From NCBI GenBank assembly GCA_947383005.1, contig CANDBT010000036.1, forward strand, positions 1 to 45,418: a stretch of DNA of 45,418 bases, in the 5' to 3' direction. The stretch comes from an uncultured bacterium. GTDB lineage: Bacteria > Bacillota > Clostridia > Lachnospirales > Lachnospiraceae. The notes under the pieces were generated by a model. The model made no database searches. It was not told the DNA's origin and was given only the letters and a program-made list of their open reading frames with translations. Positions 4,585 through 29,851 of this stretch are shown here, in pieces. The position numbers and the translations under genes are program-made. Every line of letters begins with the position of its first letter. The stretch's first letter is position 1.

Positions 4585-6848
4585 TTGAGTAAGGAATGGA
4601 TTGTCTGCACGGCGGACATACGGAACAGGATACACGAGGCGGGGATTTTCCGGCCTGACGAAAGAATTGTGTTGACTGCGAAAAACTGCGTGCTGCTGGA
4701 ACATTTTACGGGAAAGGCATACAGCTACCGCATGGTGGATTTACATACTTTGAAAGCAAAGAGACTGTTTTCAAGATCCACGCCACTGAATGAGGCAGGA
4801 TACCGGAGAGCCATAGAGAAAATGGCGACGCAGTCAGAAAGCGGGACAGCATTTGTACAGGATGAGGTTCGCGGGCCGGGGAATTACTTGCCCATATCTT
4901 CTATGACATTCTGCCGGAGTACGGACTGACGTTAAGAGAGAACCAGCTTTCTCTTTCCCTCGCCATGCTGGAAGCCATGGAGAAAGAAAAGGTGGCGCTG
5001 TGTGAGGCCGAGGTGGGGACGGGGAAAACTCATGCCTATCTTATGGCGGCGGTCATTTACCGTCTGTTTCATGGAGAAGGGCAGCCGGTGATGATCTCCA
5101 CGTCTACTATTGCCCTGCAGAAAGCATTGACGGAAGAGTATATTCCCCAGATTTCGGGGATTCTTCTGGAACACCGTATCATTGAAGAACCTCTGACATT
5201 TGCAGTGCGTAAGGGGAAAAACCATTATGCATGCGACAGCAGGGTAAAGACTTATTTATCCTCAATCAGACATAATAACCGTCCGGAGGACAGGAAGCTG
5301 ATGGAGATTCTGACCGCTCTTTTTGTGGGAGCCGCTTCCCTTGACCTGGACGGCCAGCCCCTGACAGACTATGTAAAGAAAAGGATCTGTGTGGAAAACT
5401 GCCGGAATACCTGCGAGTTTTCCAGTGTATGCCGTTACCGCACTTTCCTCAGAAGATCCAACCAGGGGAAGGCAGATTTCCAGATTGCCAACCATAACCT
5501 TGTACTGGCAGATATGTTGAGCAGGAAAGGCGGCAGAAACCGTCTGCTCCCGGAGCATGGCATCTTAATCTTTGACGAAGCCCATAAGCTGCCGGAGGCT
5601 GCCAGACAGATGTACGGGGGCAGCTTTGAAAATGTGGAGCTGGAGCGTGTGGCGGCCAGCATCATCAGGGCGGTGGCAGGCAGACCGGAGAAGAGAGGGG
5701 CGCTTTCACTATGTGAGGAAATGCTGGAACTGAATACGGCTCTGTTTGAAAATCTGAAAAAATTTGCAGGAACGCGGTATGACAACAACCGCATGGAAGT
5801 CATACTCACACCGTCCATCCTGCTGTCTCTGAAAGCACTGTCAGCTGTGGTAAAAAGCCTGTCAGTGTTTTTCTATACCGCAGACCGGGGAAACACGGCA
5901 TATAAGCATATTTCCGGCAGACTGAATCAGAAGCAGGAGAAGCTGGCGGTACTTTGTGACTATGAGAATTTTATCTGCTGGCTGGAATACACAGGAGTGA
6001 CGGCCTGCAGGCTCTGCGTTCTGCCAAAGCACCTTGACTTTCTGCTCCATGAGGATCTGTGGAGCAGAGGGAAACCATATCTTCTGACTTCGGCCACTCT
6101 GTCCGTGGGCGGCGACTTCAGCCGCTACATGCATCAGACAGGGATTGACCTGCTGAACCGGAACCGGATTCTGAGTGTGAGCAAGGCCTCTCCCTTTGAT
6201 TACTGGAACCATGCCCTGCTGTATCTGCCGGAGGATATGCCGTTTCCCAATATCAGGAAAACAGCTTACCGGAAGGCGGTGGCAGACAGGCTGGAAGAAC
6301 TGATCCGGCAGAGCCACGGGCATACGCTGGCGTTGTTCACATCCTACCGGATGATGGAGATGGTGTATCAGGAGCTTGCAGAGAAGATAAAAGATTTTCC
6401 GCTGTTTTCCATGGGAAAGGGAAAGCTGGAGGCCATCCGGGAGTTCCGAAAGAGTGTGAACGGGGTACTGCTTGCCAGCGACAGCGCTGGGGAGGGGATT
6501 GACCTGGCTGGGGATATCCTTTCCTCCCTTGTGGTGGTGAAGCTGCCATTTCCCGTGCCAGACCCGGTATTGGAGTATGAGAAGTCCTTACATGAGGATT
6601 TCCATGAGTATCTGGCGGAAGTCATTGTGCCGGGGATGCTGATGAAGCTGCGCCAGTGGATTGGGCGGGGCATCCGCAGGGAGACAGATACCTGCGTGTT
6701 CTCCATCCTGGACTGCAGAGCCGGCGGGCGGTATAAGAATGACATTCTGGCGGCCCTGCCGGACATGCCGGTGACGGAGAGGATGGAGGATGTGGGGATC
6801 TTTATCAGGAGCAATAAGCCGGAGAGCTATTTTATGGATCAGAAATGA
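4585..6848 (+). pseudogene. DinG/XPD-type ATP-dependent helicase, frameshifted
   Basis: The start is TTG 4585 after AAGGAGG (MSKEWIVCTADIRNRIHEAG). The N-terminal part reads in one frame to a stop at 4927-4929. From 4866 another frame continues as AHIFYDILPEYGLTLRENQL to 6848. The natural join needs one extra G in the run at 4878-4881. The rejoined protein is about 755 residues. It holds Walker A EAEVGTGKTHAYL, an iron-sulfur cysteine cluster (CVENCRNTCEFSSVC plus an upstream Cys), DEAH (IFDEAHKLPEAAR), ASDSAGEGIDLAGD and the motif VI box RQWIGRGIRR: a superfamily 2 helicase of the DinG family acting on ICE DNA. The helicase core itself (from M at 4965) is open and could still be made if reinitiated. 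Confidence 0.8.
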
Positions 6849-7312: not shown

Positions 7313-7503
7313 AAAAGAATGAGAGAGTCCGAAATGAATTTCAGGACGGATTTCAGAAAAGTTCGGAAAAGTCTCCGAAAGAGGCTTGAAGAATGACAGG
7401 ATTTATGTTAATCTGATGGCAGGACAAATCAGTGGAACTCCTGGCTCCCAGTTTGATGAAAGCCATCGGCTTTTCTCTGGCTAAAAAAGTCAGGAGTGAT
7501 ACC

Positions 7504-8340
7504 ATGAAAAACGAATATTCAAAAAAAGAATCAAGACATTTCTATGCGGCCATGTATCTCCGGCTTTCCAGGGAGGACAGCGATGTGGGAACCACCGCTG
7601 ACACTGGAAGCGCAGGAAGTGCGGAAGTCACATTCAGAGCCGAGAGCAACAGCATCGGCAGCCAAAGGGAGCTGATCCGTTCCTTTATCAGGGAACAGGA
7701 GGACATAGAGCTTTTTGACTGCTATGCAGACGACAATTATTCCGGCAGCAACTTCGAGAGACCAGAATTTAAAAGAATGATAAGCGACATCAGGGCGGGC
7801 AGGGTGAACTGCGTCATCGTGAAAGACCTGTCCCGTTTCGGGCGCGATTATATTGAGACCGGGAGGTATCTGGATCAGGTATTCCCGGCTCTGGGGGTGC
7901 GTTTTATCGCCCTTACCGACCGGTATGACAGCTTTTCGGCAGATGCCGGGGAGCGCAACATTGTACTGCCGGTAAAAAATTTCATAAACGACAGCTATTG
8001 CCGTGACATATCCACCAAGGTAAAAAGCCAGCTTGCGATAAAACGCAGGAAGGGGGAATGCCTTGCGGCTTTTGCCGTGTATGGCTACCGGAAATCGGCG
8101 GAAGACAGAAACAGGCTGCTGGTGGACGATTATGCGGCGGGCATTGTCCGCAGGATTTTTGCGTGGAAGATTGAGGGAATGGCTGTTTCCGCCATAGCGG
8201 AAAAACTCAACGGCCTGCATATCCTGTCTCCAAAGGAATATAAGAAATCCCTGGGGCTGAATTATCGGGGAGGCTTTACCAGGGGCAGCGACTCCAGGTG
8301 GAGCAGCCCGTCTGTCCGGCGGATACTGACCAACGCCTGA
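7504..8340 (+). pseudogene. Large serine recombinase 1 of the outer element, 5' half (split by the inner element)
   Basis: The start is ATG 7504 after CAGGAG. The N-terminal resolvase domain has the catalytic serine in MYLRLSRED, then the conserved VIVKDLSRFGRDYIETGRYLD, and the recombinase domain continues to SVRRILTN. At N277 (AAC 8332-8334) homology stops and two foreign codons lead to a TGA. The missing half (EVYLGHLVQGR onward, with zinc ribbon and coiled coil) lies 18.9 kb downstream at 27279-28127 in register; rejoining gives 559 residues, a normal length for the family. An unusual ~20-residue Gly/Ser/Thr insert follows the catalytic motif (TTADTGSAGSAEV). Without its DNA-binding C-terminus the present product should be inactive. 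Confidence 0.93.
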
Positions 8341-8348
8341 GTTATAAT
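8326..8348 (+). promoter_or_regulatory. Left attachment junction (attL) with the -10 half of a split promoter
   Basis: The host side ends ...GACC, the shared core is AACG (8332-8335), and the element begins CCTGAGTTATAAT. TATAAT (8343-8348) is a perfect -10 box. In the integrated state the -35 position (8320-8325) is CGGATA, a poor match. The matching TTGACA sits at the other end of the element (27264-27269). Confidence 0.85.
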
Positions 8349-8408
8349 AAGCATAACCTTAGAAAAGCTAGGAAACATAAGGCTTTCATCGGTTATGCTT
8401 ATTTTTTT
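8347..8408 (+). terminator. Left-end terminator hairpin with conserved 12-mer arms
   Basis: ATAAGCATAACC (8347-8358) pairs with GGTTATGCTTAT (8391-8402), 12 bp, with an inner stem GAAAAGC/GCTTTC and a run of seven Ts (8402-8408). It should stop read-through from the host recombinase gene. A transcript starting ~7 nt after TATAAT (near 8355) would lack most of the left arm and escape termination. Confidence 0.75.
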
Positions 8409-8440
8409 ATCTACACAAACTCAGACGCAAGGAGGTACAA

Positions 8441-8692
8441 ATGGATACGAGAAAATTAACAGTTTATGCGGGAAGCGGGAAAAATTACGACCCAATTTCC
8501 AAGATCATTCTGCAAGGGAAATGGTTAGAAGATTTAGGGTTTTCCATCGGTGATAAAGTAACGGTTGCCTGTCAGCAGGGCAAACTTGTTATTGAACGCG
8601 CCATGGATGGACAAGCGCAACAGGAGGCTATGGAGACGGTACAGCAGGCTGGCAAACGCCAGGGGAAGGAGAATACATATGGCAGACATTAA
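8441..8692 (+). CDS. SymE-family (AbrB-fold) small protein
   Basis: This encodes 83 residues starting at ATG after AAGGAGG. The segment LTVYAGSGKNYDPISKIILQ, then GKWLEDLGFSIGDKVTVACQQGKLVIE, matches the SymE swapped-hairpin AbrB-like fold (GKWLEEAGF-IGD-V-V). Enteric SymE is an SOS-induced toxin under antisense RNA control; ICE-borne homologues are common but their role is unclear. It is the first gene of the inner operon, right behind the junction promoter, and overlaps the next gene by 14 nt. It may be an addiction or regulatory component. Confidence 0.7.
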   Translation: MDTRKLTVYAGSGKNYDPISKIILQGKWLEDLGFSIGDKVTVACQQGKLVIERAMDGQAQQEAMETVQQAGKRQGKENTYGRH

Positions 8693-9125
8693 AAAAGTAT
8701 TTGACGAGACATTGAAACTGGATCGGGGTATTCAGAGCCTCCTGTCATTCTCCGCTTTTGAACGTAATGGTGATCTTAGCGGCCTGCATATTGATTTTGA
8801 CGACAGTGAGCAGCTTTTCCTCACGGAAGAACTCAGGGAAATCATGGAAAAACTTTCCGATGTGCATTTCCGGCTGAAATACCTCTCACGCCCTGTCAGG
8901 GAAACAGGCCGCCTGCATAAGAACCGGAGCGGCAGGTATGAAACGGCAAGCGGCCATTATTATACCAGCGGCCAGGGGATCGAGGCCCTGATTACAGACG
9001 GATACCCGGAAGTGGCGTATTGGGTATGGACAAGGGTGGAGCATAACGGGAATGATTATTATTTGGTGGGGCATAAAGATGTCAGCATGGACGGGCTGAC
9101 CGTGCGCGTAAGGGAGAGGGTGTAA
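8679..9125 (+). CDS. DUF5348 domain protein
   Basis: This encodes 148 residues from ATG 8679 (AGGGGAAGGAG upstream). The C-terminal half carries RLHKNRSGRYETASGHYYTS, then EALI...YWVWTRVEHNGNDYYLVGHK, the beta-rich DUF5348 signature seen in Clostridia conjugative elements. The N-terminal half is helical. It is soluble, function unknown, co-transcribed between the SymE-like gene and ParA (2-nt gap). Confidence 0.75.
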   Translation: MADIKKVFDETLKLDRGIQSLLSFSAFERNGDLSGLHIDFDDSEQLFLTEELREIMEKLSDVHFRLKYLSRPVRETGRLHKNRSGRYETASGHYYTSGQGIEALITDGYPEVAYWVWTRVEHNGNDYYLVGHKDVSMDGLTVRVRERV

Positions 9126-9127
9126 CA

Positions 9128-9910
9128 ATGGGAGCGACAATCTATTGCCTGTGTAACCAAAAAGGCGGATGCGCAAAGACCACAAGTTCGGTGAATATCG
9201 GGATTGGGCTTGCCCGCGAAGGGAAGAAAGTCCTTTTAGTGGACGCAGATCCGCAAGGTTCCCTGACAGCAAGCCTTGGATACCAGCAGCCTGACCAGAT
9301 TAAAGTCACGCTGGCTACGATATTGGGCGCAATTATCATGGATACTCCCCTGCCGGATGGCGGGGGGATCCTCCACCATGGGGAAGGGGTTGACCTTCTC
9401 CCGGCAAATATTGAACTGTCCGGGCTGGAGGTCACTCTGGTAAACATCATGAGCCGGGAGACGATCCTGCGCCAGTATCTCCAGACAGTAAGTGAGGCAT
9501 ATGACGCGATTATCCTGGACTGTATGCCGTCGCTTGGTATGCTGACGATAAATGCCCTCGCAGCAGCGGACGAGGTACTGATACCCGCCCAGGCGCATTT
9601 TTTGTCCATCAAGGGGTTGGAACAACTTCTCAGGACTATTAAAAAAGTGAAAAGGCAGATCAACCCAGCGCTGTCCATAGCGGGGATACTGGTGACGATG
9701 GCGGATATGCGCACGAATTACGCGAGGGAGATCGTTGAGATCCTGCGTGACACGTATGGTGAGAAAATCAGGATATTTGAGAGTATCATTCCCCTGTCTG
9801 TCCGGGCCGCTGAAACCAGCGCGGAGGGAAAAAGTATTTACCTCCACGACCCCGCCGGGAAAGTAGCCGCCGCCTATGCCGCGTTGACCAGGGAGGTGAT
9901 GCGGGGGTGA
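9128..9910 (+). CDS. parA: ParA-family partition ATPase
   Basis: This encodes 260 residues. It has the deviant Walker A KGGCAKTT at the N-terminus (CNQKGGCAKTTSSVN), the second motif LLVDADPQGSLTASLG, Walker B YDAIILDCMPSLGMLT and a C-terminal SVRAAETSAEGKSIY as in Soj/ParA proteins. Such ATPases position plasmid or ICE DNA on the nucleoid. Its partner ParB overlaps its 3' end by 4 nt. In this family the gene heads the replication/partition block and supports maintenance of the excised circle. Intact. Confidence 0.95.
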   Translation: MGATIYCLCNQKGGCAKTTSSVNIGIGLAREGKKVLLVDADPQGSLTASLGYQQPDQIKVTLATILGAIIMDTPLPDGGGILHHGEGVDLLPANIELSGLEVTLVNIMSRETILRQYLQTVSEAYDAIILDCMPSLGMLTINALAAADEVLIPAQAHFLSIKGLEQLLRTIKKVKRQINPALSIAGILVTMADMRTNYAREIVEILRDTYGEKIRIFESIIPLSVRAAETSAEGKSIYLHDPAGKVAAAYAALTREVMRG

Positions 9911-10803
9911 AAAGCAGCGCAAGGAATATTCAGATGACGAGTTATGATGACCTGTTCACTGCCACGGAAACCATAGGGGCAGATGGCGGGAAAATACAGG
10001 AAGTCGCGCTTTCCGACCTGTTCCCATTCAGGAATCACCCTTTCAAGATTCTGGAGGATCAAAGCATGGAGGACATGGTGGAGAGTGTCCGGGAGCATGG
10101 GGTACTCATGCCGGGGATTGCCCGCCCCCGCCCGGAGGGCGGCTATGAACTGGTGGCTGGGCATCGGCGCAGGCACGCATCCCAGCTGGCAGGGCGGGAC
10201 ACAATGCCGGTGGTGATCCGGGATCTGGATGATGATGAAGCTACCCTTTTCATGGTAGACAGCAATATCCAGCGGGAAAACCTTCTCCCCAGCGAGAAGG
10301 CGTGGGCATATAAAATGAAGATGGACGCTCTGAGGCACCAGGGCATCAAAAACGCTTCTCGCCAAGTTGGCGAGAAGTACAGTGTGGACGCTTTAAGCGA
10401 AAATTCCAATGACAGCGCAAGGAATATCCACCGCTTTATCCGGCTGACAGAGCTGATCCCGGAACTGCTTCGGATGGCAGACGATAAGAAACTGCCGTTC
10501 AACTCCGCTGTGGAACTGTCCTATCTTGCTAAAGAAGAACAAGGGGATCTCCTTGGATTAATGGAGAAGCTGGCTGTTATCCCCTCATTGGAGCAGGCAA
10601 AACGCCTGAAAAAATACAGCCAGGAGGAAAAGCTGGTGGTGGACGTGATGGACGCGATACTGACAGAGGAACGACCGGTTCCTGTACAGGTCACATTAAA
10701 AAAAGACCGCCTGAAACAGTACTTCCCACAAAGCTATACACAAAAACAGATGGAGGAGATAATCTTTTCCCTCTTGGAAACATGGAAAAATGAACAAGGA
10801 TAA
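9907..10803 (+). CDS. parB: ParB-family partition protein
   Basis: This encodes 298 residues starting GTG 9907, overlapping ParA (GGGGGTGA). The N-terminal ParB/Sulfiredoxin domain has LFPFRNHPFKI, ESVREHGVLMPGIARP and the CTP/arginine patch AGHRRRHASQL. A central helix-turn-helix-rich domain contains NIQRENLLPSEKAWAYKMKM. It binds a centromere-like parS site and loads on DNA with CTP; no parS site was identified here. It is followed by a strong terminator, so symE-DUF5348-parA-parB forms one transcription unit. Confidence 0.93.
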   Translation: MKSSARNIQMTSYDDLFTATETIGADGGKIQEVALSDLFPFRNHPFKILEDQSMEDMVESVREHGVLMPGIARPRPEGGYELVAGHRRRHASQLAGRDTMPVVIRDLDDDEATLFMVDSNIQRENLLPSEKAWAYKMKMDALRHQGIKNASRQVGEKYSVDALSENSNDSARNIHRFIRLTELIPELLRMADDKKLPFNSAVELSYLAKEEQGDLLGLMEKLAVIPSLEQAKRLKKYSQEEKLVVDVMDAILTEERPVPVQVTLKKDRLKQYFPQSYTQKQMEEIIFSLLETWKNEQG

Positions 10804-10811
10804 GGCCGCAA

Positions 10812-10854
10812 AAGCCGTCCGGTGACTGACTTGCAGTTACCGGGCGGCTTTTTT
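10812..10854 (+). terminator. Terminator after parB
   Basis: AAGCCGTCCGGTGAC, a 9-nt loop, GTTACCGGGCGGCTT, then Ts. The 15-bp stem is nearly perfect. It separates the partition genes from repA. Confidence 0.88.
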
Positions 10855-10934
10855 GCGTTCATGATAGATCCGCCCCGGCAGACTTTGTGTTTGCCGGGGC
10901 TTTTTTTCGTAAAAAAGAAAAGGAGGCAACCAAT

Positions 10935-11909
10935 ATGCCATTACAACTGGATTATTACTATGGCAATGAAGCAGAACAGTACACATTCTACCGCATTCCC
11001 AAAGTGCTGTTCACGGACACCAGGTTTAAAGGCGTGTCAGTAGAGGCTAAAGTGCTTTACGGCCTGCTTCTTGACCGTATGGCGCTTTCCATAAAAAACA
11101 GCTGGCTGGATCAGGATGGGCGAGTATACATCATTTATACCATCGCTGATGTGATGGCCACCCTTGGCTGCGCGGAGCAGAAAGCGAACAAACTTTTAAA
11201 CGAACTGGACGCGGCAAAAGGCGTGGGGCTTATTGAGCGTGTGCGGCGAGGGCTGGGGAAGCCCAACGTGATCTATGTCAAAAACTTTATTGGCAGGCCA
11301 AAACCGGGAGAACCGCAGGAATCACAAATCAAGAATTGTGAAAATCACAAATCAGGAATTGCGAAAACCACAAGTCAAGAAATGCGAAAATCACAAACAA
11401 ATAATACTGACTTAAACAAAACTGACTTTAGTGATACTGATCCATCCATCTATCCGGCAGGACCTGTGTCCGGGGATGTGGAAAATGTGGATAACCCACG
11501 GGAAGCATGGGGGAAACCAAAACAGATTGATGGGATGGATAAGATCTCCGCATACCGTGAGCTGGTCAGGGAGAACATCAGCTATGACGCCCTTTTGCAG
11601 GATAGCCCTTATGACAAAGAGCGTCTGGACGGCTTTGTGGAATTGATAGTGGAAGTCTGTTGCAGCCGCCGCCCTACAATACGCATCAACCAGGAGGATA
11701 TGTGTACGGAGGCGGTCAGGAGCCGCCTGCTGAAGCTGGACAGCGAACATATCCGCTATGTCATGGACTGCCTGGATAAAAACACGACACTGATAGGCAA
11801 CATCCGCGCTTATATCCTTTCCGCGCTATTTAACGCCCCGGTGACGATCAGCCAGTATTATTCAAGCCTGGTCAGCCATGACATGGCAAACGGCTTTGGT
11901 GTTGGATAG
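10935..11909 (+). CDS. repA: RepA_N-family replication initiator with DUF6017 C-terminus
   Basis: This encodes 324 residues starting ATG 10935 after AAAGGAGG. The N-terminal winged-helix RepA_N domain reads FYRIPKVLFTDTRFKGVSVE...KVLYGLLLDRM. Residues ~125-165 form a low-complexity linker, and the C-terminal DUF6017 domain follows (YRELVRENISYDALL...DSEHIRYVMDCLDKNTTLIGNIRAYILSALFN). RepA_N initiators bind iterons inside their own coding sequence; 23-bp repeats lie exactly in the linker DNA (11321-11398). The element should therefore replicate autonomously after excision. Confidence 0.9.
   Translation: MPLQLDYYYGNEAEQYTFYRIPKVLFTDTRFKGVSVEAKVLYGLLLDRMALSIKNSWLDQDGRVYIIYTIADVMATLGCAEQKANKLLNELDAAKGVGLIERVRRGLGKPNVIYVKNFIGRPKPGEPQESQIKNCENHKSGIAKTTSQEMRKSQTNNTDLNKTDFSDTDPSIYPAGPVSGDVENVDNPREAWGKPKQIDGMDKISAYRELVRENISYDALLQDSPYDKERLDGFVELIVEVCCSRRPTIRINQEDMCTEAVRSRLLKLDSEHIRYVMDCLDKNTTLIGNIRAYILSALFNAPVTISQYYSSLVSHDMANGFGVG
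11321..11398 (+). repeat. 23-bp iterons inside repA (probable replication origin)
   Basis: Three tandem 23-bp units start at 11321, 11344 and 11367 (ATCACAAATCAAGAATTGTG + AAA and variants), with a fourth partial unit at 11390. Because 23 is not a multiple of 3 the encoded peptide changes from copy to copy, so the DNA rather than the protein is conserved. This is the usual position of the origin in RepA_N replicons. Confidence 0.85.
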
Positions 11910-12021
11910 CCGCATGGCCGGAGGGCGTATTCTTTTCCGCTGGTAATTTTATATTGCTGCGAAGCCCCTGGGGCTGGCAGATAAAACTAAACAACTAAAA
12001 TTTTAAGGAGGATCAACGAAC

Positions 12022-12480
12022 ATGGAACAGAACATGAATATTTTAATTGTGGAGCCGGGGAAGCCACCCCGTCCGGCGGCAATCCCCAACACATTGGAGG
12101 CTGTTGAAAAAACACTGGGCGGCGCGATCCAGGTGGGTTGCTTCCTGCCCCAGAGGGTGCTGCTGCTTAGCCGGGAAGATACTGCGGGGCTTGCCCCGAA
12201 CCGTGTCATGCCGGGGAAAAGGGGGCATATCAGCGGCACGTTCCTGTTATGCGGGATACCGGAAGAGGGAAATTGCTTTGATTCCCTTACTTCCGGGCAG
12301 CAGAAAGAGTTCCAGGATCTTTTCTCTGCCCCGGACGAGTTTATGATGGTCGGCAGCGATTCCTATGCGGATCCGGATGATGTCGCGGATGTGGTCTATA
12401 GCCTTTGGGATACGCTGGCAGATGGGGAAACCATGGTGCTGACCAAATGGGGCGGCAGGAAACAGGGGGCAGCCCGGTAA
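12022..12480 (+). CDS. DUF3846 domain protein
   Basis: This encodes 152 residues from ATG 12022 after AAGGAGG. The N-terminal half MNILIVEPGKPPRPAAIPNT onward, with GGAIQVGCFLP and GHISGTFLLCG, is the DUF3846 pattern. The family is common in phages and ICEs of Firmicutes and its function is unknown. It stands between repA and the transfer genes, with ~110 nt of untranslated leader upstream. Confidence 0.8.
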   Translation: MEQNMNILIVEPGKPPRPAAIPNTLEAVEKTLGGAIQVGCFLPQRVLLLSREDTAGLAPNRVMPGKRGHISGTFLLCGIPEEGNCFDSLTSGQQKEFQDLFSAPDEFMMVGSDSYADPDDVADVVYSLWDTLADGETMVLTKWGGRKQGAAR

Positions 12481-12567
12481 ATTCCATGGGAAGCCGGGGA
12501 AACGGCAAAAGGCGGCGGGATCAGCTGAAACCTGCCTGCTGCTTGTTAAGGAAGGAGGCACAACACT

Positions 12568-13038
12568 ATGCAGGACGAAATAAGGGATAAATCAGTCGCA
12601 CTTGTGATACGGACAGGGAAAAACGGGGGGCGGCTGACAGCGGAACTTTTAAAGTGGGCGATCCGGCAGTACCAGAGGAACACGCAGGGGCATCCCCACG
12701 GCAAGCAGAGCGTCAAAAGCCTGGTAAAGCAGGGAGCTGGTGTCCAGAGTATTGAGATCACGGACCAGAACATAAAATCTTTTGAGCGGTGCGCCCGCAA
12801 ATATGGTGTAGACTTCGCACTGAAAAAGGATCCGTCACAAGGGAAATACATTGTGTTTTTCAAAGCCCGTGACGCTGACGCTCTGAATGCAGCTTTTTCC
12901 GAGTATGCGGCCCAGACGCTGAACCGGCAGGGAAGGAAGCAGTCGCTGAGAAAACAGCTTTCCCACTTTAAGGAGGTTGTGAAGGGCTTAGTGGCCGGTC
13001 GGGAGAAGAACCGGGAGAAAGGGGGCATAGGCCGTTGA
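12568..13038 (+). CDS. pcfB: PcfB/DUF3801 conjugation accessory protein
   Basis: This encodes 156 residues, basic and helical, without membrane segments. KSVALVIRTGKNGGRLTAEL and HGKQSVKSLVKQGAGVQSIEI are the DUF3801/PcfB signature. In Enterococcus pCF10 PcfB is an accessory that links the relaxosome to the coupling protein. Its stop overlaps the VirD4 start (TTGA), so the two are translationally coupled, as in Tn1549-type elements. The ribosome site is AAGGAGG. No PcfG-type relaxase remains in this element for it to serve. Confidence 0.88.
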   Translation: MQDEIRDKSVALVIRTGKNGGRLTAELLKWAIRQYQRNTQGHPHGKQSVKSLVKQGAGVQSIEITDQNIKSFERCARKYGVDFALKKDPSQGKYIVFFKARDADALNAAFSEYAAQTLNRQGRKQSLRKQLSHFKEVVKGLVAGREKNREKGGIGR

Positions 13039-14813
13039 GGAATATTGAAATAAAAAAATACATTGTTCCGAACCTTCCGTATGTGTTCATGTTTTGGATT
13101 TTTTCTAAAGTCGCGGAGTGTTACCGTGTATCCACGGGGGCGGATATGGTGTCAAAGGCGATGGCGGCAATCTCCGGGCTGGGGGAGGCGCTTACCCAAA
13201 ACCCCCTCCCAAGTTTCCATCCATATGATATCCTGGCCGGAGCCGCCGCTGCTGTGGCGGTTCGGGCGGCGGTCTACTTTAAAGGGAAGAACGCGAAAAA
13301 ATACCGGCATGGCGTGGAGTATGGCAGCGCCCGCTGGGGAACCCCGGAGGACATAAAGCCTTTCATAGATCCAAAGTTTGATAACAATATCCTGCTGACG
13401 CAGACAGAGAGAATCATGCTTGGGCGCAATAAGATACCCAAATATAACATTAACAAGAATGTGCTGATCATCGGCGGTTCTGGAAGCGGCAAGACCCGCT
13501 TCCATGTGAAACCGAATTTGATGCAAATGAACGCAAGCTATGTCGTTACGGATCCAAAAGGAACAGTTGTTCTGGAATGTGGGAAAATGCTTCAAAAGGG
13601 CGGCTATGAGATAAAAATACTTAACACCATCAACTTTAAGCAGTCCATGCGCTATAACCCTTTCCGCTATCTTCGCTGTGAAAACGACATTTTAAAGCTG
13701 GTCAACTGTATCATGGAAAACACTAAGGGGGAGGACAGCAAGGGCGGAGAGGATTTCTGGGCAAAGGCGGAAGCACTGTATTACCAGGCGTTGATTGCCT
13801 ATATCTGGTATGAGGCTCCGGAAAATGAAAAGAATTTCAACACGCTGCTGGAAATGCTCAACGCATCCGAGGTACGTGAGGAGGACGAAAACTTTAAGAA
13901 CGCTGTAGATATGATGTTTGACCGTCTTGAGCAGCGTGACCCGGAGCATTTCGCTGTCCGTCAGTATAAAAAATACAAAATGGCCGCTGGCAAAACGGCA
14001 AAATCTATCCTTATTTCTTGCGGCGCGAGGATGGCTCCGTTTGACATTAAAGAAGTCCGGGACATGATGATGGATGACGAGTTGGAACTTGACAAGCTGG
14101 GCGACAGGAAAACGGCGCTGTTCTGTATTGTGTCTGACACGGATACGACATTTAACTTCATAGCGTCTATGGTTTACACGCAAATGTTCAATGTCCTTTG
14201 CGACAGGGCGCTTGAAAACGGCGGGGCGTTAAAGACGCACGTCACCTGCCTTTTGGATGAATTCGCGAACCAGAAAATACCTAATTTTGAACACCTGATT
14301 TCCGTGATCCGCAGCCGTGAGATTTCAGCCCATGTGATCGTCCAGACACAGAGCCAGTTAAAGGCGGTTTATAAGGATCATGCGGAAACAATCATAGGCA
14401 ACTGTTCCTGTGTCCTCTTCCTGGGCGGCAAGGAACAAAGCACATTAAAGGAGATTTCCGCTACGCTCGGAAAGGAAACGATAGACAGTTTTAACACGTC
14501 AGACACACGCGGAAGCCAGCGCAGCTATGGGCTAAATTATCAAAAATTGGGAAAGGAACTTATGACACCCGATGAGCTTGCGGTCATGGACGGGGGCAAG
14601 TGCATCCTCCAGGTGCAGGGTGTCCGGCCGTTTTTTTCCGATAAGTTTGACATAACCAGGCATCCGCAGTACAAGTACCTGTCGGACGCGGATCCGAAAA
14701 ATACTTTTGATGTGGCGAAATTCTTGAAGCATCGCCTGAAGGTCAGGCCGGACGATGAATATGAGGTTTTTGATCCAGGTACTCCGCCTGGACAAGGGGC
14801 TTCTGATGGTTGA
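13035..14813 (+). CDS. virD4: VirD4/TraG-type coupling protein (CD1115 family)
   Basis: This encodes 592 residues starting TTG 13035, coupled to pcfB. It has N-terminal membrane segments (YVFMFWIFSKV; AAAAVAVRAAVYF), then a cytoplasmic ATPase with Walker A IIGGSGSGKTRFHVKP and ATP-binding VTDPKGTVVLE. Walker B is CLLDEFANQKIP, and SREISAHVIVQTQSQLK and FLGGKEQSTLKEIS follow. This hexameric pump connects DNA-relaxase complexes to the type IV secretion channel. It is full length and looks intact, unlike the VirB4 ATPase of the same operon. Confidence 0.95.
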   Translation: MRNIEIKKYIVPNLPYVFMFWIFSKVAECYRVSTGADMVSKAMAAISGLGEALTQNPLPSFHPYDILAGAAAAVAVRAAVYFKGKNAKKYRHGVEYGSARWGTPEDIKPFIDPKFDNNILLTQTERIMLGRNKIPKYNINKNVLIIGGSGSGKTRFHVKPNLMQMNASYVVTDPKGTVVLECGKMLQKGGYEIKILNTINFKQSMRYNPFRYLRCENDILKLVNCIMENTKGEDSKGGEDFWAKAEALYYQALIAYIWYEAPENEKNFNTLLEMLNASEVREEDENFKNAVDMMFDRLEQRDPEHFAVRQYKKYKMAAGKTAKSILISCGARMAPFDIKEVRDMMMDDELELDKLGDRKTALFCIVSDTDTTFNFIASMVYTQMFNVLCDRALENGGALKTHVTCLLDEFANQKIPNFEHLISVIRSREISAHVIVQTQSQLKAVYKDHAETIIGNCSCVLFLGGKEQSTLKEISATLGKETIDSFNTSDTRGSQRSYGLNYQKLGKELMTPDELAVMDGGKCILQVQGVRPFFSDKFDITRHPQYKYLSDADPKNTFDVAKFLKHRLKVRPDDEYEVFDPGTPPGQGASDG

Positions 14814-14867
14814 TCCCAATGTCCGGCCATGTTTTAAGGAACATATCAGAAGGAAGGAGGAGGCTTT

Positions 14868-16163
14868 ATCAAAACAATTACATTAGGTTCCCTTTTTGAC
14901 GGCATAGGCGGGTTCCCTTATGCCGCTTCTTTTTATGGGATCCGCACACTATGGGCCAGTGAGATCCTGCCGGAGTGTGTCTCTGTCACAAAGAAGCATT
15001 TTCCGGGAATGGAACATACAGGGGATATCACCTTGCTCCATGGCGGGCGGCTCCCGCCTGTTGACATCATCACTTTTGGCTCACCGTGCCAGGGGCTTTC
15101 CATGGCAGGGCGGCGGCTGGGCCTCGCGGATGAGCGGAGCGGGCTGTTCATGGAAGCAGTACGCATTATATATGAAATGAAGGAGGCGACGCATGACGAG
15201 TACCCAAAGATCGCTGTATGGGAAAATGTCCCAGGGGCTTTGTCGTCCGCAGGAGGACGTGACTATCAGGCCGTGCTGGAAGCGTTCACAAAAAGCAAGG
15301 TTCCAATGCCTCATTCTGGACGGTGGGCAAACGCCGGAATGGTACGAGGCCGAGGGGCTGACCTCGCTTGGGTCATGTACGATTCCCAATATTTCGGAAC
15401 GGCACAGCGGCGCAGGCGTTTGTTCACTGTTACAGATTTTGCAGGACGACGCGCCGGACAGATACTCTTTGTCCCCAAAAGCCTGCGCGGGTATTTTGAA
15501 GCGGGCGGAACGCCGGAACAAGGACTTGCCGCCTATGCTGAGGCAGGCTCTGGAGGAACAGGCGGGGAAGCTGCGGGAAACGCCCTGACGGATGGCGGCG
15601 TGTACTGTATTGCCGGGAATATCATTGGCCGCCGGGAACATAATGGCGGGAACGGCATAGGATACCGGAAAGATATTTCCTACACTTTAACGTCAATGGA
15701 CCGCCATGCGGTGGCAGCCCCACGTATAAGGGCTGTTGAGATACTGAATGACCAGGGAGGCAGCTCTATGACGGTGGAGCGGTCCGGCGTTTCCCCGACA
15801 CTCCGAAGCCAGGCGCACGGCAACCTTCCCATCGTAGCTGTGGATACAGGGGTATTGTGCATGGGGACTTCCCAGGCAAACGCTGGAATATTGGACAGCC
15901 AGTCACCGACGCTTACCTGTGGCCACGGGCAGGCCCCAATCCTGGCAAGGCCGGCGGCATCAGGGTTCCAGATCCGCCGCCTGACCCCGCTGGAATGCGA
16001 AAGGCTCATGGGGTATCCTGATTTTTGGACGGAATATGGGCATAACGGGGAAAAGATCAGTGACAGCAAACGCTACCAGATGCTTGGAAACAGTGTCGCC
16101 GTCCCTTGCGTGGCCTATATTATGCAGGGGATACGGCAGGCTTTATTGGAAAATGGGGATTAA
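14868..16163 (+). CDS. C5 cytosine DNA methyltransferase without a canonical start codon
   Basis: Motif I (TLGSLFDGIGGFPYAASFYG) is encoded upstream of the first in-frame ATG (15009), and between the upstream stop (14835) and 15009 there is no ATG, GTG or TTG. GGAGGAGG (14856-14863) lies 4 nt before ATC 14868, where relatives begin MKTITLGSLFDGIGG. An ATC (or ATT 14877) start is therefore likely, giving about 431 residues. Other motifs: GSPCQGLSMAG (catalytic Cys), WENVPGALSSAGG, QRRRRLF and GNSVAVPCVAYI. The long middle region is the target-recognition part. Methylation probably protects the element from restriction on entry. Starting at 15009 would lose the AdoMet-binding loop. Confidence 0.85.
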   Translation: MKTITLGSLFDGIGGFPYAASFYGIRTLWASEILPECVSVTKKHFPGMEHTGDITLLHGGRLPPVDIITFGSPCQGLSMAGRRLGLADERSGLFMEAVRIIYEMKEATHDEYPKIAVWENVPGALSSAGGRDYQAVLEAFTKSKVPMPHSGRWANAGMVRGRGADLAWVMYDSQYFGTAQRRRRLFTVTDFAGRRAGQILFVPKSLRGYFEAGGTPEQGLAAYAEAGSGGTGGEAAGNALTDGGVYCIAGNIIGRREHNGGNGIGYRKDISYTLTSMDRHAVAAPRIRAVEILNDQGGSSMTVERSGVSPTLRSQAHGNLPIVAVDTGVLCMGTSQANAGILDSQSPTLTCGHGQAPILARPAASGFQIRRLTPLECERLMGYPDFWTEYGHNGEKISDSKRYQMLGNSVAVPCVAYIMQGIRQALLENGD

Positions 16164-16205
16164 GACCCACCCTGTTAAAATAGTATTTTGATAATAAGTC
16201 ATAGG

Positions 16206-16235
16206 AAGCCGGATGTTTAACGTCAGGCTTTTTTC
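16206..16235 (+). terminator. Terminator after the methyltransferase
   Basis: AGCCGGATGTT and AACGTCAGGCT form a stem with one mismatch and a wobble, followed by six Ts. Confidence 0.65.
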
Positions 16236-16553
16236 ATATTTTGGAGGCATTTATGGGCATCAGGATACGTTCACCCCCGCATGGGCAGGCTGGCCCAAAC
16301 AACAACTGAATATGGAACTGGAAACCAGAGGGCTATCGTAGCAAGGACGTTTTGGAAAAATGGATCGCGGTACGGAGGCTCTCTTTTCTTATCTCAAATA
16401 AACAAAATAAAAAAAGGAAAGGAAAAGAACCTGAATCCTGAGATACACATTTTAGAACGTAGAACTAATTGAAGTATACGGGCTGGGTTTCGTCTATAAT
16501 GTGGTGAAACGACAAAATAAGGCGTTTCTAGGGTTTGGGTTTCGGTAATATTT
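16236..16553 (+). promoter_or_regulatory. Intergenic region with likely promoter and hairpin leader for the transfer operon
   Basis: There is no gene of any length; an 18-codon frame from ATG 16254 follows GGAGG but has no family. TATAAT at 16495-16500 is a perfect -10 box with only a weak -35 (TTGAAG 20 nt away). The hairpin GAAACG/CGTTTC (16506-16528) follows, then the maff2 ATG at 16554, which has a poor ribosome site. It probably separates two transcription units. Confidence 0.45.
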
Positions 16554-16769
16554 ATGGCATTTTTCACCAGCGCAATCGACACTTTGAAGGTTCTCGTAAT
16601 CGCGTTAGGCGCAGGCCTCGGCGTATGGGGCGTGATCAATTTGCTTGAGGGCTACGGCAACGACAACCCTGGAGCCAAGAGCCAGGGAATGAAGCAGCTT
16701 ATGGCCGGCGGAGGTGTCGCCCTGATCGGTATGCAGCTTATCCCCTTGCTTGCCAACCTGTTCAGCTAA
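16554..16769 (+). CDS. maff2: Maff2 family mobile-element membrane protein
   Basis: This encodes 71 residues with two transmembrane helices (VLVIALGAGLGVWGVINLL and GGGVALIGMQLIPLLANLF) flanking a polar loop GYGNDNPGAKSQGMKQLM. It is nearly invariant in Firmicutes conjugative elements and sits before the TrbL/VirB6-like gene. Size and topology resemble VirB2/TrbC pilins, so a pilin-like role in the type IV channel is a reasonable inference. Confidence 0.9.
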   Translation: MAFFTSAIDTLKVLVIALGAGLGVWGVINLLEGYGNDNPGAKSQGMKQLMAGGGVALIGMQLIPLLANLFS

Positions 16770-16783
16770 GGCAGGGATAGCCT

Positions 16784-17653
16784 ATGCTGAATATCCTCGA
16801 CCAGATTGAGCAGTGGATTAAGGATTTTCTGATTGACTGTATCACAGGAAACCTTACCGGGCTGTTCGACCAGGTAAATGACGCGGTCGGGGACGTGGCT
16901 GTGGACGTGGCAAAGACACCCCAGCAGTGGAACTCTGGGGTGTTTTCCATGATCCGCTCCCTGTCTGATAACGTGGTCGTCCCCATAGCCGGAATTATCC
17001 TCACGTTAGTCTTGTGTTATGAACTTATCAGCATGATCGTGGAAAGAAACAATATGCACGATTTTGAAACTTTTATTTTTTTTAAATGGATTTTTAAGGT
17101 ATTTGTGGCGACATACCTTGTCACCCATACCTTTGACATCACAATGGCAATTTTTGAACTGTCGCAGAATGTGGTACAACAGAGCGCCTCTGTGATCACC
17201 GGGAATACAAGCATTCAGTTTAGCACGGCTTTGGGGAACCTGACTACCCAGCTTCAAACCATGGGGATCGGGGAACTGTTCGGGCTTTTGGTGGAAACCG
17301 TGCTGATACGGATCACCACCCCCATCCTCTCCCTTTGTGTCATGCTGGTGCTTGTGGGGCGCATGGTAGAAATATATATTTACTGTTCTGTAGGCGCGAT
17401 TCCATTCGCCACCATGACCAACCGGGAATGGGGACAGATGGGGAACAATTATCTTCGCGGCTTAGTCGCCCTTGGCCTGCAGGGCTTTTTCATCATGGTC
17501 TGCATAGCGATTTATTCCGCGTTGGTGGCAGGCATCGGGGCAGCGCCTAATATCCATACGGCAATCTGGAGCTGTGCGGGGTACACCATGCTTTTATGCT
17601 TCTCCTTGTTCAAGACCAACTCCATCTCTCGCTCCATCTTCAATGCGCATTAA
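16784..17653 (+). CDS. TrbL/VirB6-like conjugal transfer membrane protein (CD1112 type)
   Basis: This encodes 289 residues with an amphipathic N-terminus (LNILDQIEQWIKDFLIDCI) and five or six transmembrane helices (VVVPIAGIILTLVLCYELI; FKWIFKVFVATYLV; ILSLCVMLVLVGRMVEIYIY; GLVALGLQGFFIMVCIAIYS; IWSCAGYTMLLCFSLF). It matches the polytopic inner-membrane channel component that follows Maff2 in Tn1549-like elements. Complete, 14 nt after maff2. Confidence 0.88.
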   Translation: MLNILDQIEQWIKDFLIDCITGNLTGLFDQVNDAVGDVAVDVAKTPQQWNSGVFSMIRSLSDNVVVPIAGIILTLVLCYELISMIVERNNMHDFETFIFFKWIFKVFVATYLVTHTFDITMAIFELSQNVVQQSASVITGNTSIQFSTALGNLTTQLQTMGIGELFGLLVETVLIRITTPILSLCVMLVLVGRMVEIYIYCSVGAIPFATMTNREWGQMGNNYLRGLVALGLQGFFIMVCIAIYSALVAGIGAAPNIHTAIWSCAGYTMLLCFSLFKTNSISRSIFNAH

Positions 17654-17664
17654 GGGAGCCGCCT

Positions 17665-18279
17665 ATGGAAGAAAGGAGGATGCCCCGGCGGTATCGCATG
17701 GATGGAACCGGGCAGATGCGCCGGACATGGAACGGGAAGCTGCCCGAAGAATTTAATGAAAAGGATATGCTCCTGTTTGCCATAGATACAGATATTGTGG
17801 TAAACGGGAGCATATCAGACAGCACCAGGGACACGATCCGGGAGGCAGGCTACCGCTATGAAGGCGGGAACCTCCTGCCCCTGGGGAAACCGGAAAAGGA
17901 GGATTTCATGGAAAACCAGAAAAGCGCGCTGGGGGTCAATGTCAAGGTGTACCCTTCCCAGAAAGAAGGGAACCTTCTCGCTTTTGCCAGCGCTACTATT
18001 GGCGGGTGCTTTGCCATCAATGGGATCCGTATTATGAACAGTGAAAAAGGGGCATTTGTCGCCATGCCCAGCAGCAAGGGAAGCGACGGGAAATACCATG
18101 ACATATGCTGCCCTACTACGGCGGAAATGCGCAAGGCGATCAATGAAGCCGTCATGGGCGCGTACCAGAAGGCTGTGGAAAAGCCGTCCCTCCGCGGGGC
18201 GTTACAGAACGCGGCAAAGGAGGCCGCCGCACGGCCTGCGCCGGAGGCACAGAGGGCAACGGATAAGGGCGCGCGGTAA
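17665..18279 (+). CDS. SpoVG-domain protein with N-terminal extension
   Basis: From ATG 17665 the product is 204 residues: ~80 unfamiliar residues (MEERRMPRRYRMDGTGQM onward), then a complete SpoVG domain (NVKVYPSQKEGNLLAFASATIGGCFAINGIRIM). A strong ribosome site AAAAGGAGG lies 5 nt before an in-frame ATG at 17908, which would give a normal stand-alone SpoVG-like protein of 123 residues. SpoVG proteins bind nucleic acid and modulate gene expression. The extension may be a separate small domain fused in frame, so both products are possible. The C-terminal Ala/Lys-rich tail is likely disordered. Confidence 0.8.
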   Translation: MEERRMPRRYRMDGTGQMRRTWNGKLPEEFNEKDMLLFAIDTDIVVNGSISDSTRDTIREAGYRYEGGNLLPLGKPEKEDFMENQKSALGVNVKVYPSQKEGNLLAFASATIGGCFAINGIRIMNSEKGAFVAMPSSKGSDGKYHDICCPTTAEMRKAINEAVMGAYQKAVEKPSLRGALQNAAKEAAARPAPEAQRATDKGAR

Positions 18280-18331
18280 CAGCTTATGCCGCCTGTAGCT
18301 GCCCTTGGATATAGTAGGAGGAAAAAAACAA

Positions 18332-18847
18332 ATGGAATATCCACAAATTTACCGTTCTTCTATAACAGAAGCGCAGGAAAAAAATGAGACGGAATTGTTC
18401 CGGGCATCCCATAAGTTAAATATTGACTGCAAAAACGCGATAGAAACAGCGATCCGTGAGAATTTTGATGGGATGCGCCTGAAAAAAACCTGTCTGCGGC
18501 CAGTCCTGGAGGAATTTGGCGCTGACCGTATGAACTGGGTTCTGGCGAACACGGTGCAGCAGAATGAATATGACGGGCGTTTCTCCAGGGAGAACAAAGA
18601 ATGGGCAAAATCATTCCAGTTTCCTGAAGGCGGCGCTTCCGGATATGACACGCGGTGGGAGTTTATTGTTGAAAGCCACCCGGCCGTGCTGGATGGTTTT
18701 ATCAGCCTGGCCCGCCGGGAACTGGCCGCGGGAAGGGCGGAGCCGGAAAAAGAGGGGCGCAGGCCATCTATCAGGGAACAGCTTGCGGTGTTGCCGGTTC
18801 CCGGCGATAAGCCTCTGGCTCCAAATAAAGACCGGGAGGTGAGGTAA
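18332..18847 (+). CDS. DUF3849 domain protein
   Basis: This encodes 171 residues from ATG 18332 after TAGGAGG. IYRSSITEAQEKNETELFRA, CKNAIETAIRENFDGMRL, VLEEFGADRMNWVLANTVQ and FSRENKEWAKSF are the DUF3849 signature found next to PrgI genes in Clostridia ICEs. Soluble, helical, unknown function. It ends 1 nt before the PrgI start. Confidence 0.85.
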   Translation: MEYPQIYRSSITEAQEKNETELFRASHKLNIDCKNAIETAIRENFDGMRLKKTCLRPVLEEFGADRMNWVLANTVQQNEYDGRFSRENKEWAKSFQFPEGGASGYDTRWEFIVESHPAVLDGFISLARRELAAGRAEPEKEGRRPSIREQLAVLPVPGDKPLAPNKDREVR

Positions 18848-19270
18848 ATGGCATTTGTGCCTGTACCAAAAGACTTGACAAAAGTTAAGACCAAGGTAGC
18901 GCTGAACCTGACGAAGCGCCAGCTTATATGCTTCGGGCTGGGCGGGCTTGTTGGGATACCTGCCTATCTTTTCAGCTGCGGCAGCATTGGGAACGAATCG
19001 GCGGCACTGTTGATGATCGGCCTGATGCTGCCGTTTTTTTCTTTTGGAATTTACGAAAAGGACGGGCAGCCGCTTGAAAAAGTGCTGAGGAACTTCATCA
19101 GCGTTTCATTCCTGCGCCCGTCGGCGCGTCCCTACCGTACCGACAATGGCTATGCCGCCCTCATGCGGCAGGCGGATTTTGACAAGGAGGCAGAACGGAT
19201 TGAAAACAAAACAGCAGGCAAGGCAGGAAAAAGCCCTGCAAGCCGCAAAAAACCAGTACAAAAAGGATAA
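18848..19270 (+). CDS. prgI: PrgI family conjugal transfer membrane protein
   Basis: This encodes 140 residues. MAFVPVPKDLTKVKTKVALN, then two transmembrane helices (LICFGLGGLVGIPAYLFSC; SAALLMIGLMLPFFSFGIYE) and EKVLRNFISVSFLRPSARPY are typical of PrgI (VirB3-like). It serves the type IV channel and is usually followed by VirB4. The lysine-rich tail overlaps the start of the VirB4 gene by ~70 nt. Confidence 0.9.
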   Translation: MAFVPVPKDLTKVKTKVALNLTKRQLICFGLGGLVGIPAYLFSCGSIGNESAALLMIGLMLPFFSFGIYEKDGQPLEKVLRNFISVSFLRPSARPYRTDNGYAALMRQADFDKEAERIENKTAGKAGKSPASRKKPVQKG

Positions 19271-20462
19271 GGCGGAATTGAAGTCCCTCCGGCTCCCGCT
19301 GGAGGGGAAGCTGACAGACAAGGAGAAAAAACGCCTTGTGGCGGCGATGAAAAAAGCAAAACGTGACGGCAAAATCCCAAAGACCGCGCAGGAAACTATT
19401 CCTTACCAGGAAATGCGCCAGGACGGTATCTGCGTCGTAGGCGGGAACTTTTATACGAAGCAGATTGAGTTCCTGGATATCAATTACCAGCTCGCGCAGA
19501 ATGAGGACAAAAACATTATTTTTGAGAATTGGTGTGACTTCCTGAATTACTTTGACGCATCCATCCGCTTCCAGCTTTCGTTTTTGAACCAGAAGGCGGA
19601 CATGGAAAAATTCCGCAAATCCATTGAGATACCGGAACAGGACGACCAGTTTAACGGGATCCGGCGCGAATACGCCGGTATGCTGCGGGGGCAGCTCTCA
19701 CGGGGGAACAATGGGCTGACAAAAACCAAGTATATCACTTTCGGCGTGGAAGCTGAGGACGCGAAAGCGGCAAAGACACGTCTGGAACGGATTGAGGCCG
19801 ACATACTGGCGAATTTTAAGGTTCTGGGGGTAAAGGCAAGGCCGCTGGACGGCTATGAGCGGCTCACTGTCCTGCACCAGATGTTCCACCCTTCCGGGGA
19901 ACGTAAATTCCGTTTTTCCTGGGATGCTATATGGAAAACCGGGCTTTCCAGCAAGGACTTCATCGCGCCGGACAGCTTTACTTTCCAGAACGGGCAGTAT
20001 TTCAGGATCGGGCAGGTTTACGGCGCGGCTTCCTTTTTGCAGATTTTAGCGCCGGAGCTGACGGACCGTATGCTGGCGGACTTCCTTGACCTGGAAAACA
20101 GCATGGTGGTCACGCTGCATATCCAGTCCATTGACCAGAGCGCCGCAATAAAGACCATCAAGCGCAAGCTTACCGATCTGGATAAAATGCGCATTGAGGA
20201 GCAGAAAAAGGCAGTTCGGGCAGGGTATGACATGGATATTATCCCCACGGATCTTGCCACATACGGGAATGAGGCGAAGACGTTGTTGGAGGATCTGCAG
20301 AGCCGCAATGAGCGTATGTTTTTAGTGACGATCCTTGTCATGAACACGGCGGAAAAAAGGCAGAAGCTGGAGAACAACGTATTCCAGGCGGCGGGGATCG
20401 CGCAGAAATACAACTGCGCCCTGCGCAGGTTAAGTTACCAGCAGGAGCAGCGGAACCCCTGA
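19200..20462 (+). pseudogene. virB4: VirB4-type transfer ATPase, truncated to its N-terminal half
   Basis: The start TTG 19200 has AAGGAGG at 19184-19190. About 420 residues remain: KTKQQARQEKALQAAKNQY, the N-terminal VirB4 domain (DGICVVGGNFYTKQIEFLDI; FFPSGERKF-like region; RIGQVYGAASFLQILAPELTD) and LRRLSYQQEQ. It then changes to RNP-stop. Relatives continue for ~380 residues with the Walker A/B ATPase core, all missing here. The following 200 nt are an unrelated fragment, so a deletion removed the VirB4 C-terminus plus the NlpC/P60, topoisomerase and relaxase genes usually found next. Without this ATPase the transfer channel should not work. Confidence 0.88.
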
Positions 20463-21512: not shown

Positions 21513-21588
21513 CTACGATTAAGCCTGCCAGGATCCAATGGCATTGAGACAAGCAGGAGCGGCATATCTTGAAATGGAGGTGTTGTCT

Positions 21589-21846: not shown

Positions 21847-21887
21847 GAGATAAAAATGAAGAGGACAGAGTTTATCAGCAGGCGGGC

Positions 21888-23659: not shown

Positions 23660-23660
23660 C

Positions 23661-26875: not shown

Positions 26876-26892
26876 AACCAGGAGGAAAACAA

Positions 26893-27219: not shown

Positions 27220-27263
27220 GCATATGTCAGACGAAAAAGATAAATAATTTTTTTATGCAGGAC

Positions 27264-29850: not shown

Positions 29851-29851
29851 A

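Follow-up and report, generated by a model that had tools for sequence, protein, structure and literature searches.

The window analyzed here is a 45,418-nucleotide (nt) stretch of DNA (contig CANDBT010000036.1, positions 1 to 45,418, forward strand) from an uncultured Lachnospiraceae bacterium (GenBank assembly GCA_947383005.1). A large serine recombinase gene in it is interrupted by a mobile element (positions 8332 to 27277), an integrative and conjugative element (ICE) of the type that carries three large serine recombinases in tandem. Here, we report that the ends of this ICE carry the -35 and -10 halves of a putative promoter, which excision would join at a spacing of exactly 17 nt ahead of a partition operon, and that a predicted hairpin starts within the -10 box. 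The element ends and the interrupted gene comprise the following features.

7432 to 8333, plus strand: N-terminal half of the host serine recombinase gene (PF00239, PF07508), co-oriented with the element
8332 to 8333, plus strand: AA crossover dinucleotide, left copy (attL), from the paired-end comparison
8334 to 8343, plus strand: the element's first bases, CGCCTGAGTT, the 3' half of the junction spacer and 5' strand of a predicted outer RNA helix
8343 to 8348, plus strand: TATAAT, -10 half of the putative junction promoter, from the left-end sequence and a search with the box unspecified
8346 to 8358, plus strand: hairpin 5' arm, AATAAGCATAACC, overlapping the -10 box and the predicted start site
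8354 to 8356, plus strand: predicted start of the circle transcript, 6 to 8 nt past the -10 box, placed by usual promoter spacing and the folds
8391 to 8408, plus strand: hairpin 3' arm (8391 to 8403) and T-run (8402 to 8408), a predicted terminator-like insulator
8418 to 8427, plus strand: AACTCAGACG, complementary at all but one position to the element's first bases and lying immediately 5' of the AGGAGG ribosome-binding site (8430 to 8435)
21992 to 26875, plus strand: three tandem large serine recombinases in full-length frames, each with Resolvase, Recombinase, and zinc-ribbon domains
27264 to 27269, plus strand: TTGACA, -35 half of the putative junction promoter, from the right-end sequence and a search with the box unspecified
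27270 to 27275, plus strand: CAAGCA, 5' part of the junction spacer, from right-end sequences
27276 to 27277, plus strand: AA crossover dinucleotide, right copy (attR), from the paired-end comparison
27276 to 28127, plus strand: C-terminal half of the host gene, from the list of open reading frames (ORFs) and the rejoined frame

The left end reads AA, CGCCTGAGT, TATAAT, and the right end reads CTTGACA, CAAGCA, AA; rejoining the flanks restored the host protein (..RRILTN/EVYLGHLVQG..). Among eight paired ends, the core was identical on both sides in every case (a 2-bp direct repeat of AA or GA, the only dinucleotides that the script's pattern admitted), and seven pairs of rejoined flanks gave a recognizable host protein. 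The rejoined proteins ran in the element's direction in seven of the eight, as does the interrupted ORF in the window; orientation was taken from the rejoined flanks, as upstream open frames alone were insufficient (antisense frames were long too at several loci). These results support the window ends and their relatives as true element ends. An earlier note on this DNA had given the core as AACG, which is ruled out by four paired ends (G283, G111, G046, and G305) that give AA only; the core is AA, or GA in relatives. The CG after AA at the right end of the window is host DNA; spacing at the junction is unaffected.

The window copy (19 kb) looks like a deletion derivative of a longer element, having lost the second half of VirB4 and the part that follows. 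It is without 47.6 kb found in a 94 to 97% identical element of genome G283, with a clean junction at positions 20447 to 20450, and its VirB4 frame (CD1110 family) covers profile positions 1 to 353 of 752 only, against 1 to 752 in G283. With this stretch gone and VirB4 cut, the conjugation module of the window copy is incomplete; both ends and all three recombinase frames are intact.

The two boxes lie on opposite ends and would be brought together by excision. The circle would read TTGACA CAAGCA AA CGCCTGAGT TATAAT, its 17-nt spacer made up of CAAGCA (27270 to 27275), AA (27276 to 27277, equivalent to 8332 to 8333), and CGCCTGAGT (8334 to 8342), and exact-junction reads from circles would carry TTGACACAAGCAAACGCCTGAGTTATAAT. 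This bears out the earlier note, which had placed TTGACA at 27264 to 27269 and TATAAT at 8343 to 8348 with N17 after joining and had held that neither end is a promoter when integrated; on the host side, CGGATA matches TTGACA at 3 of 6 positions on the left, and TATAAT is matched at 1 of 6 on the right. At a spacing of 16 to 18, the best host-side -35 matched 1 to 4 of 6 positions in 16 left ends (2 of 6 in the Vescimonas element described below). Of 27 distinct right ends, 26 had a best host-side -10 that matched 1 to 3 of 6 positions, and the remaining one had a match of 5 of 6. These 27 include the array copies in G308 and G164 (see below) and exclude rows with no run of five T upstream (L095 and the spoVT-like insertions L106 and L121), rows at contig ends (L113 and L117), and duplicates (such as L145).

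When shuffled ends were joined (dinucleotide shuffles), 12 of 12 box matches at a spacing of 16 to 18 arose in 3 of 60,000 pairs; the corresponding figure for joins between random cut points of the window was 2 of 200,000. The 4.99-Mb host genome contains 52 copies of the exact pattern TTGACA-N17-TATAAT and 2 of the reversed pattern, a strong overrepresentation of the exact consensus. Promoter-like sites between 8200 and 13100 numbered 7, against 4.4 in shuffles (standard deviation, 2.2), and were not clearly commoner.

Both boxes were conserved in relatives with the AA core when left unspecified in the search patterns, the comparison of related ends that the earlier note had called for. A search of 299 genomes of the same taxonomic family gave a match in 6, including the window's own, with real left ends in the window, G283, G111, and G046 (Hungatella hathewayi DSM 13479); two other genome matches (L005 and L006; E values, 5e-4 and 7e-4) were not element ends. 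Scanning GTDB species genomes with the -10 box as N6 yielded 11 loci; with the window added, all 12 left ends carry TATAAT. The copies are related to one another, and 3 of the 11 loci are the same records as G111, G046, and G283. The right-end pattern with the -35 box as N6 (up to 2 mismatches, 12 genomes) gave 8 places in 7 genomes, all 8 with TTGACA. One viral contig matched this pattern, again with TTGACA (1 of 1), and the AA left end had 0 matches in viral contigs. A scan of 397 genomes that allowed up to 2 mismatches matched 18 places, of which 4 were element ends; the remaining 14 were judged on reading to be chance matches and dropped. We do not take L104, L107, and L112 for element ends, and L095, which has no T-run upstream, is doubtful as a right end. 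A pattern scan of 34 kb upstream did not find a left end for the G171 element.

At the level of sequence, we show the same layout, and its conservation, in three lineages, with exactly N17 between the boxes despite differing cores or spacers. Right ends of the form CTTGACACAAGCA with a GA core occur in the same taxonomic family, and the corresponding left ends (GA, TGCCCGTGT, TATAAT) would again give TTGACA-N17-TATAAT on joining. The first GA left ends were located by following the two parts of split aldo/keto reductase genes; a pattern with N6 in place of the -10 box was then run and matched 2 places in 13 genomes (TATAAT in both) and 7 places in viral contigs (TATAAT in 2). The other five viral places were dropped as coding-like DNA without a hairpin, a judgment not independent of the missing TATAAT. 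With the -35 box free, the GA right-end pattern carried TTGACA in 3 of 3 viral places. In G176, a left end (contig C20) and a right end (contig C1) split one reductase gene; IMG/VR contigs L192 (left end) and L144 (right end) were paired by their common sample, and their rejoined frame was not clear. The third lineage is represented by an annotated element of Vescimonas fastidiosa (NZ_AP023416.1), inserted in a serine recombinase gene, whose left end (GA, TTATTGTGC, GATAAT) and right end (CTTGACACAAGAA, GA) would join as TTGACA-N17-GATAAT.

The earlier note's account of the left end stands as far as the boxes go and left the hairpin that starts in the -10 box unmentioned. A hairpin followed by a T-run, beginning in or beside the -10 box, was present at each left end, and its letters differ among the three lineages. 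A start at 8355 (7 nt past the box) would keep 4 of the 13 arm bases. Predicted folds for RNA reading through from the host ranged from -20.5 to -26.5 kcal/mol, against -6.5 to -12.4 kcal/mol for RNA started 7 nt past the box (16 of 16 ends, two of which, L191 and L192, match each other over the 120 first bases that were compared). In the Vescimonas element, the read-through fold was -22.9 and the junction-started fold -11.7. Against shuffles, the window hairpin had z scores of -3.55 (8330 to 8415) and -4.32 (8349 to 8415), and +0.23 when the RNA started at 8355. Between the GA-lineage ends L186 and L187, a 12-pair core showed two compensatory and two one-sided changes and no broken pair. On these models, the left-end hairpin could be an insulating terminator against host read-through. 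L186 is itself an orphan left end, and the genes behind it look like ordinary chromosomal ones (judged without a family library).

The element's first bases are complementary to a stretch about 70 to 130 nt inside, which in most AA ends lies near the first ribosome-binding site. Shuffle P values for this complementarity were <0.05 in 10 of the 12 AA ends and in 3 of the 4 GA ends long enough for the test (a fifth, L184, was too short); in the Vescimonas element, the P value was 0.25, yet the fold pairs 10 bases without a mismatch, starting at the core GA. Only RNA entering from outside can form the predicted outer helix. The modeled pairing makes a role for this helix suggestive, not established.

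Behind the junction, the window carries the following genes.

8441 to 8692, plus strand: SymE-family gene (PF08845; E value, 4.4e-14), first of the predicted circle operon
8679 to 9125, plus strand: DUF5348 gene (PF17295; E value, 3.8e-16)
9128 to 9910, plus strand: parA (PF13614; E value, 1.8e-53)
9907 to 10803, plus strand: parB (PF02195; E value, 5.3e-19)
10811 to 10907, plus strand: two intrinsic terminators between parB and repA (about 10811 to 10854 and 10872 to 10907), the predicted transcript end
10935 to 11909, plus strand: repA (RepA_N, DUF6017; profile match), past the terminators

The junction promoter would thus face symE-DUF5348-parA-parB, with the recombinases at the opposite end. 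One or two strong terminators followed parB in six of the seven AA elements readable there (the window, G283, G111, L058, L060, and L068), with sites of -17.5 to -31.4 kcal/mol; five other AA loci were too short to read past parB. The predicted transcript therefore covers symE-DUF5348-parA-parB and leaves out the replication and transfer genes. The earlier note had aimed the promoter at this operon "and beyond," tying replication and transfer genes to excision; gene order and boxes agree with the operon, and the terminators oppose the extension. In the GA lineage (G176), the junction is followed by a 130-amino-acid protein with no Pfam match, a short frame (92 amino acids in L191), an actin-like protein, and a small protein with no Pfam match. 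The actin-like protein matched ALP_N (E value, 5.2e-12) and MreB-like_C (E value, 1.8e-11), and it matched the NCBIfam ParM model with an E value of 2.4e-9, far below that model's cutoff. We read this gene set, from its profile matches, as a putative segregation module unrelated to ParAB. In the Vescimonas element, the gene behind the junction is a DUF6050 gene, with a strong terminator (-34.5 kcal/mol) after it.

Taken together, we consider it probable that excision assembles a promoter whose start inside the hairpin arm frees symE-DUF5348-parA-parB, with read-through being insulated while the element is integrated; promoter activity, start site, termination and escape, and a benefit for inheritance are what we infer from the sequences. 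Before excision, the left-end -10 half would face host DNA with no good -35, polymerase arriving from the co-oriented host gene would make the complete hairpin and T-run and stop, and the outer helix, which needs upstream RNA, may mask the first ribosome-binding site. Excision, by joining AA to AA, would set TTGACA exactly 17 nt from TATAAT, and transcription of the circle would begin inside the hairpin 5' arm. We propose that the junction RNA, lacking most of that arm, would escape the terminator and express symE-DUF5348-parA-parB up to the terminators past parB, so that partition proteins would be made mainly while the element is an independent circle. A wider claim, which we put forward tentatively and rate nearly as likely to hold as to fail, is that the attachment site senses the state of integration in two layers. 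One set of bases would be recombination site, half promoter, and half terminator at once, and the RNA 5' end would report the circle with no regulator; across clostridial ICE lineages, the device would be aimed at the first, often short, left-end operon and, in the AA and GA lineages, at unrelated segregation systems (ParAB and actin type).

Several observations weigh against the proposed switch. Circle junctions were not found in any collection searched: none of the 30 right-end places in the 397 genomes continued into a left end, none of 8 viral-contig matches to the junction pattern was a true circle junction (7 were near-identical stretches taken for one phage gene, frames not checked, and 1 was an unrelated promoter-like site), and the AA-form junction was not found in plasmids. 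The one partial plasmid match to the GA form was the right end of the Vescimonas element. The right-end pattern did not find a right end in 5 of the 12 genomes. The Vescimonas -10 box matches only 5 of 6 positions, and a TG precedes the -10 box in the GA and Vescimonas lineages (TGTTATAAT, TGCGATAAT), from which some activity without a -35 could result. The left-end hairpin is AT-rich and was flagged by neither of two terminator scans, owing to its long loop; its stem is invariant in the 9 of 12 AA ends aligned, which leaves no covariation there, and the outer helix formed in only five of the seven whole leaders folded (absent in L061 and L062). Downstream, the loose test used for terminators also flagged a weaker site inside parA in three elements (-11.3 to -14.3 kcal/mol), and DUF6050, the first gene of the Vescimonas element, is not a segregation gene.

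The main rival explanation, which we think unlikely, is that the conserved letters reflect a recombinase attachment site only and that the likeness to a promoter has no function. Around the core is an imperfect inverted repeat, with agreement at 7 to 9 of 16 positions, that is probably the recombinase site; TTGACA overlaps one of its halves, and in the AA family all bases near the core are kept (9 of 12 ends aligned), so that the boxes are not singled out. The -10 hexamer, however, lies by eye outside the best-matching part of that repeat, and neither the constant spacing across differing spacers nor a hairpin placed alike at the -10 box in different letters favors this explanation. Chance as the source of a perfect split promoter is very improbable: the ends are AT-rich (32 and 36% G+C), but the probability for one pair of ends is about 1e-5 to 5e-5, and the N17 layout recurs in the GA-core and Vescimonas elements.

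Other alternatives accept the promoter and differ over what it does. That it drives the whole left half of the element (partition, replication, and transfer), as the earlier note proposed, appears improbable to us; genes past parB keep one direction and the Hungatella element G046 had no terminator after parB by the same test, yet the strong terminators elsewhere would have to be overcome, and read-through past parB would need an antiterminator, at which no search was aimed. Also unlikely, though less so, is a real promoter with a hairpin that acts as a regulated leader (attenuator) or as a binding site at the DNA level and not as an insulator. The loop, much of which is conserved in the AA family, is long for an intrinsic terminator, and the inverted copies of the first bases some 70 to 130 nt inside are placed as extra recombinase sites might be. 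On the other side, the predicted start cuts the hairpin arm in all three lineages, and an Rfam search of the leader returned only a chance-level match (E value, 0.85, far below gathering), so a known RNA family there was dropped.

A number of other observations concern the targets and right ends of these elements. Five of the eight paired insertions hit serine recombinase genes of other mobile elements (the window, G283, G111, G305, and Vescimonas); an LTN/LSN motif was the site in four of them (in G305 as judged by eye) and VKD/MSRFGRDY in the fifth, and the remaining insertions were in feoB, an aldo/keto reductase gene, and sequence from viral contigs. Contigs C14, C16, and C31 of G308 and C21 of G164 (L125 to L129) hold six and three right-end-like copies, respectively, in which a T-run and CTTGACACAAGCA precede GA or CA. 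Behind every copy lies one and the same protein tail, which we take to be subtilisin-like; no recombinase was seen between the G164 copies examined. IMG/VR contig L143 ends exactly at the GA core of a right end (4985 to 4999), and genome contigs start or end less than about 80 bases from a right end in G188 (C11), G106 (C49), G352 (C48), and G378 (C24 and C28), perhaps because these places occur in more than one arrangement.

Elsewhere in the window, a serine-recombinase-like frame (by eye; 29837 to 30037) adjoins the outer recombinase cluster, stops after about 60 codons, and looks truncated. Several short repeats of the type TGACCCCT lie within about 120 bases at about 30195 to 30312. Two partly identical frame stretches (39 to 944 and about 1754 to 2450; ..VGSVTILGA.. 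and ..AGSVVGFLTGASGLMMQGASLGKVLSLGFGEGFLGSTAAQG..), seen in the ORF list only, differ in their C-terminal parts, an arrangement that resembles polymorphic toxin cassettes.

Compared with known systems, the junction described here would be a new variation on the Tn4451-type junction promoter, with a partition system as its output. The junction promoter of Tn4451/Tn4453 is said, going by the title of the 2000 report of Lyras and Rood, to serve tnpX, and we know of no hairpin around the start in Tn4451. The likeness to these transposons lies in a 2-bp core and in promoter halves joined at the junction; theirs serves the recombinase gene, whereas here the recombinases are at the other end and the promoter faces the partition operon. 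A 2-bp core is given for Tn4451-type elements in two sources (PMC5704250, PMC3158075).

In Tn916, a left-end terminator (T1) shields the integrated element against host promoters, and full expression depends on the circle; an antiterminator RNA, canT, made from a complete upstream promoter, bypasses the terminator, and the genes that Tn916 controls are those for DNA processing and conjugation (PMC11658703). The element reported here may resemble Tn916, in that the hairpin plus T-run predicted near its left end, although flagged by neither terminator scan, could face host read-through as a terminator; it differs in that the start would lie inside the hairpin, so that no antiterminator would be needed. 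Circularization also brings a promoter at one end to the integrase at the other in ICEclc (Pcir) and in ICEKp1 (a state-dependent promoter), and the 5'-untranslated-region stem-loops of ICEKp1 are a further likeness; in the portion of that source available, the -35 and -10 of these promoters are not described as split by the crossover (PMC13023037). Streptococcal ICEs with triplets of serine integrases share the three tandem recombinases at one end, a very short repeat (2 to 8 bp), and a single direction relative to the target gene (mutT, traG, or hsdM), and some carry Tn1549-type conjugation modules and ParA genes; the available text describes no junction promoter for them (PMC4701971). In open-access titles and abstract openings, we found no report of such elements with a split promoter directed at partition genes or with transcription starting inside a terminator that insulates them; the subscription literature lay mostly outside that scope, so the support for novelty is weak.

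Junction promoters and insulating terminators are each already known; here, both may be packed into one attachment site, in a layout found in three lineages of gut ICEs. If true, state-dependent expression would need neither a regulator nor an antiterminator. It would also explain directly how an ICE can limit the production of partition proteins to its plasmid-like phase, a need stated for SXT/R391, in which the partition genes srpMRC serve the excised state, and expression of soj in PAPI-1 is reported to be stimulated on excision (PMC4489591). In SXT/R391, srpMRC is under the activator SetCD, whereas for the element in this window we propose a promoter formed by the junction itself.
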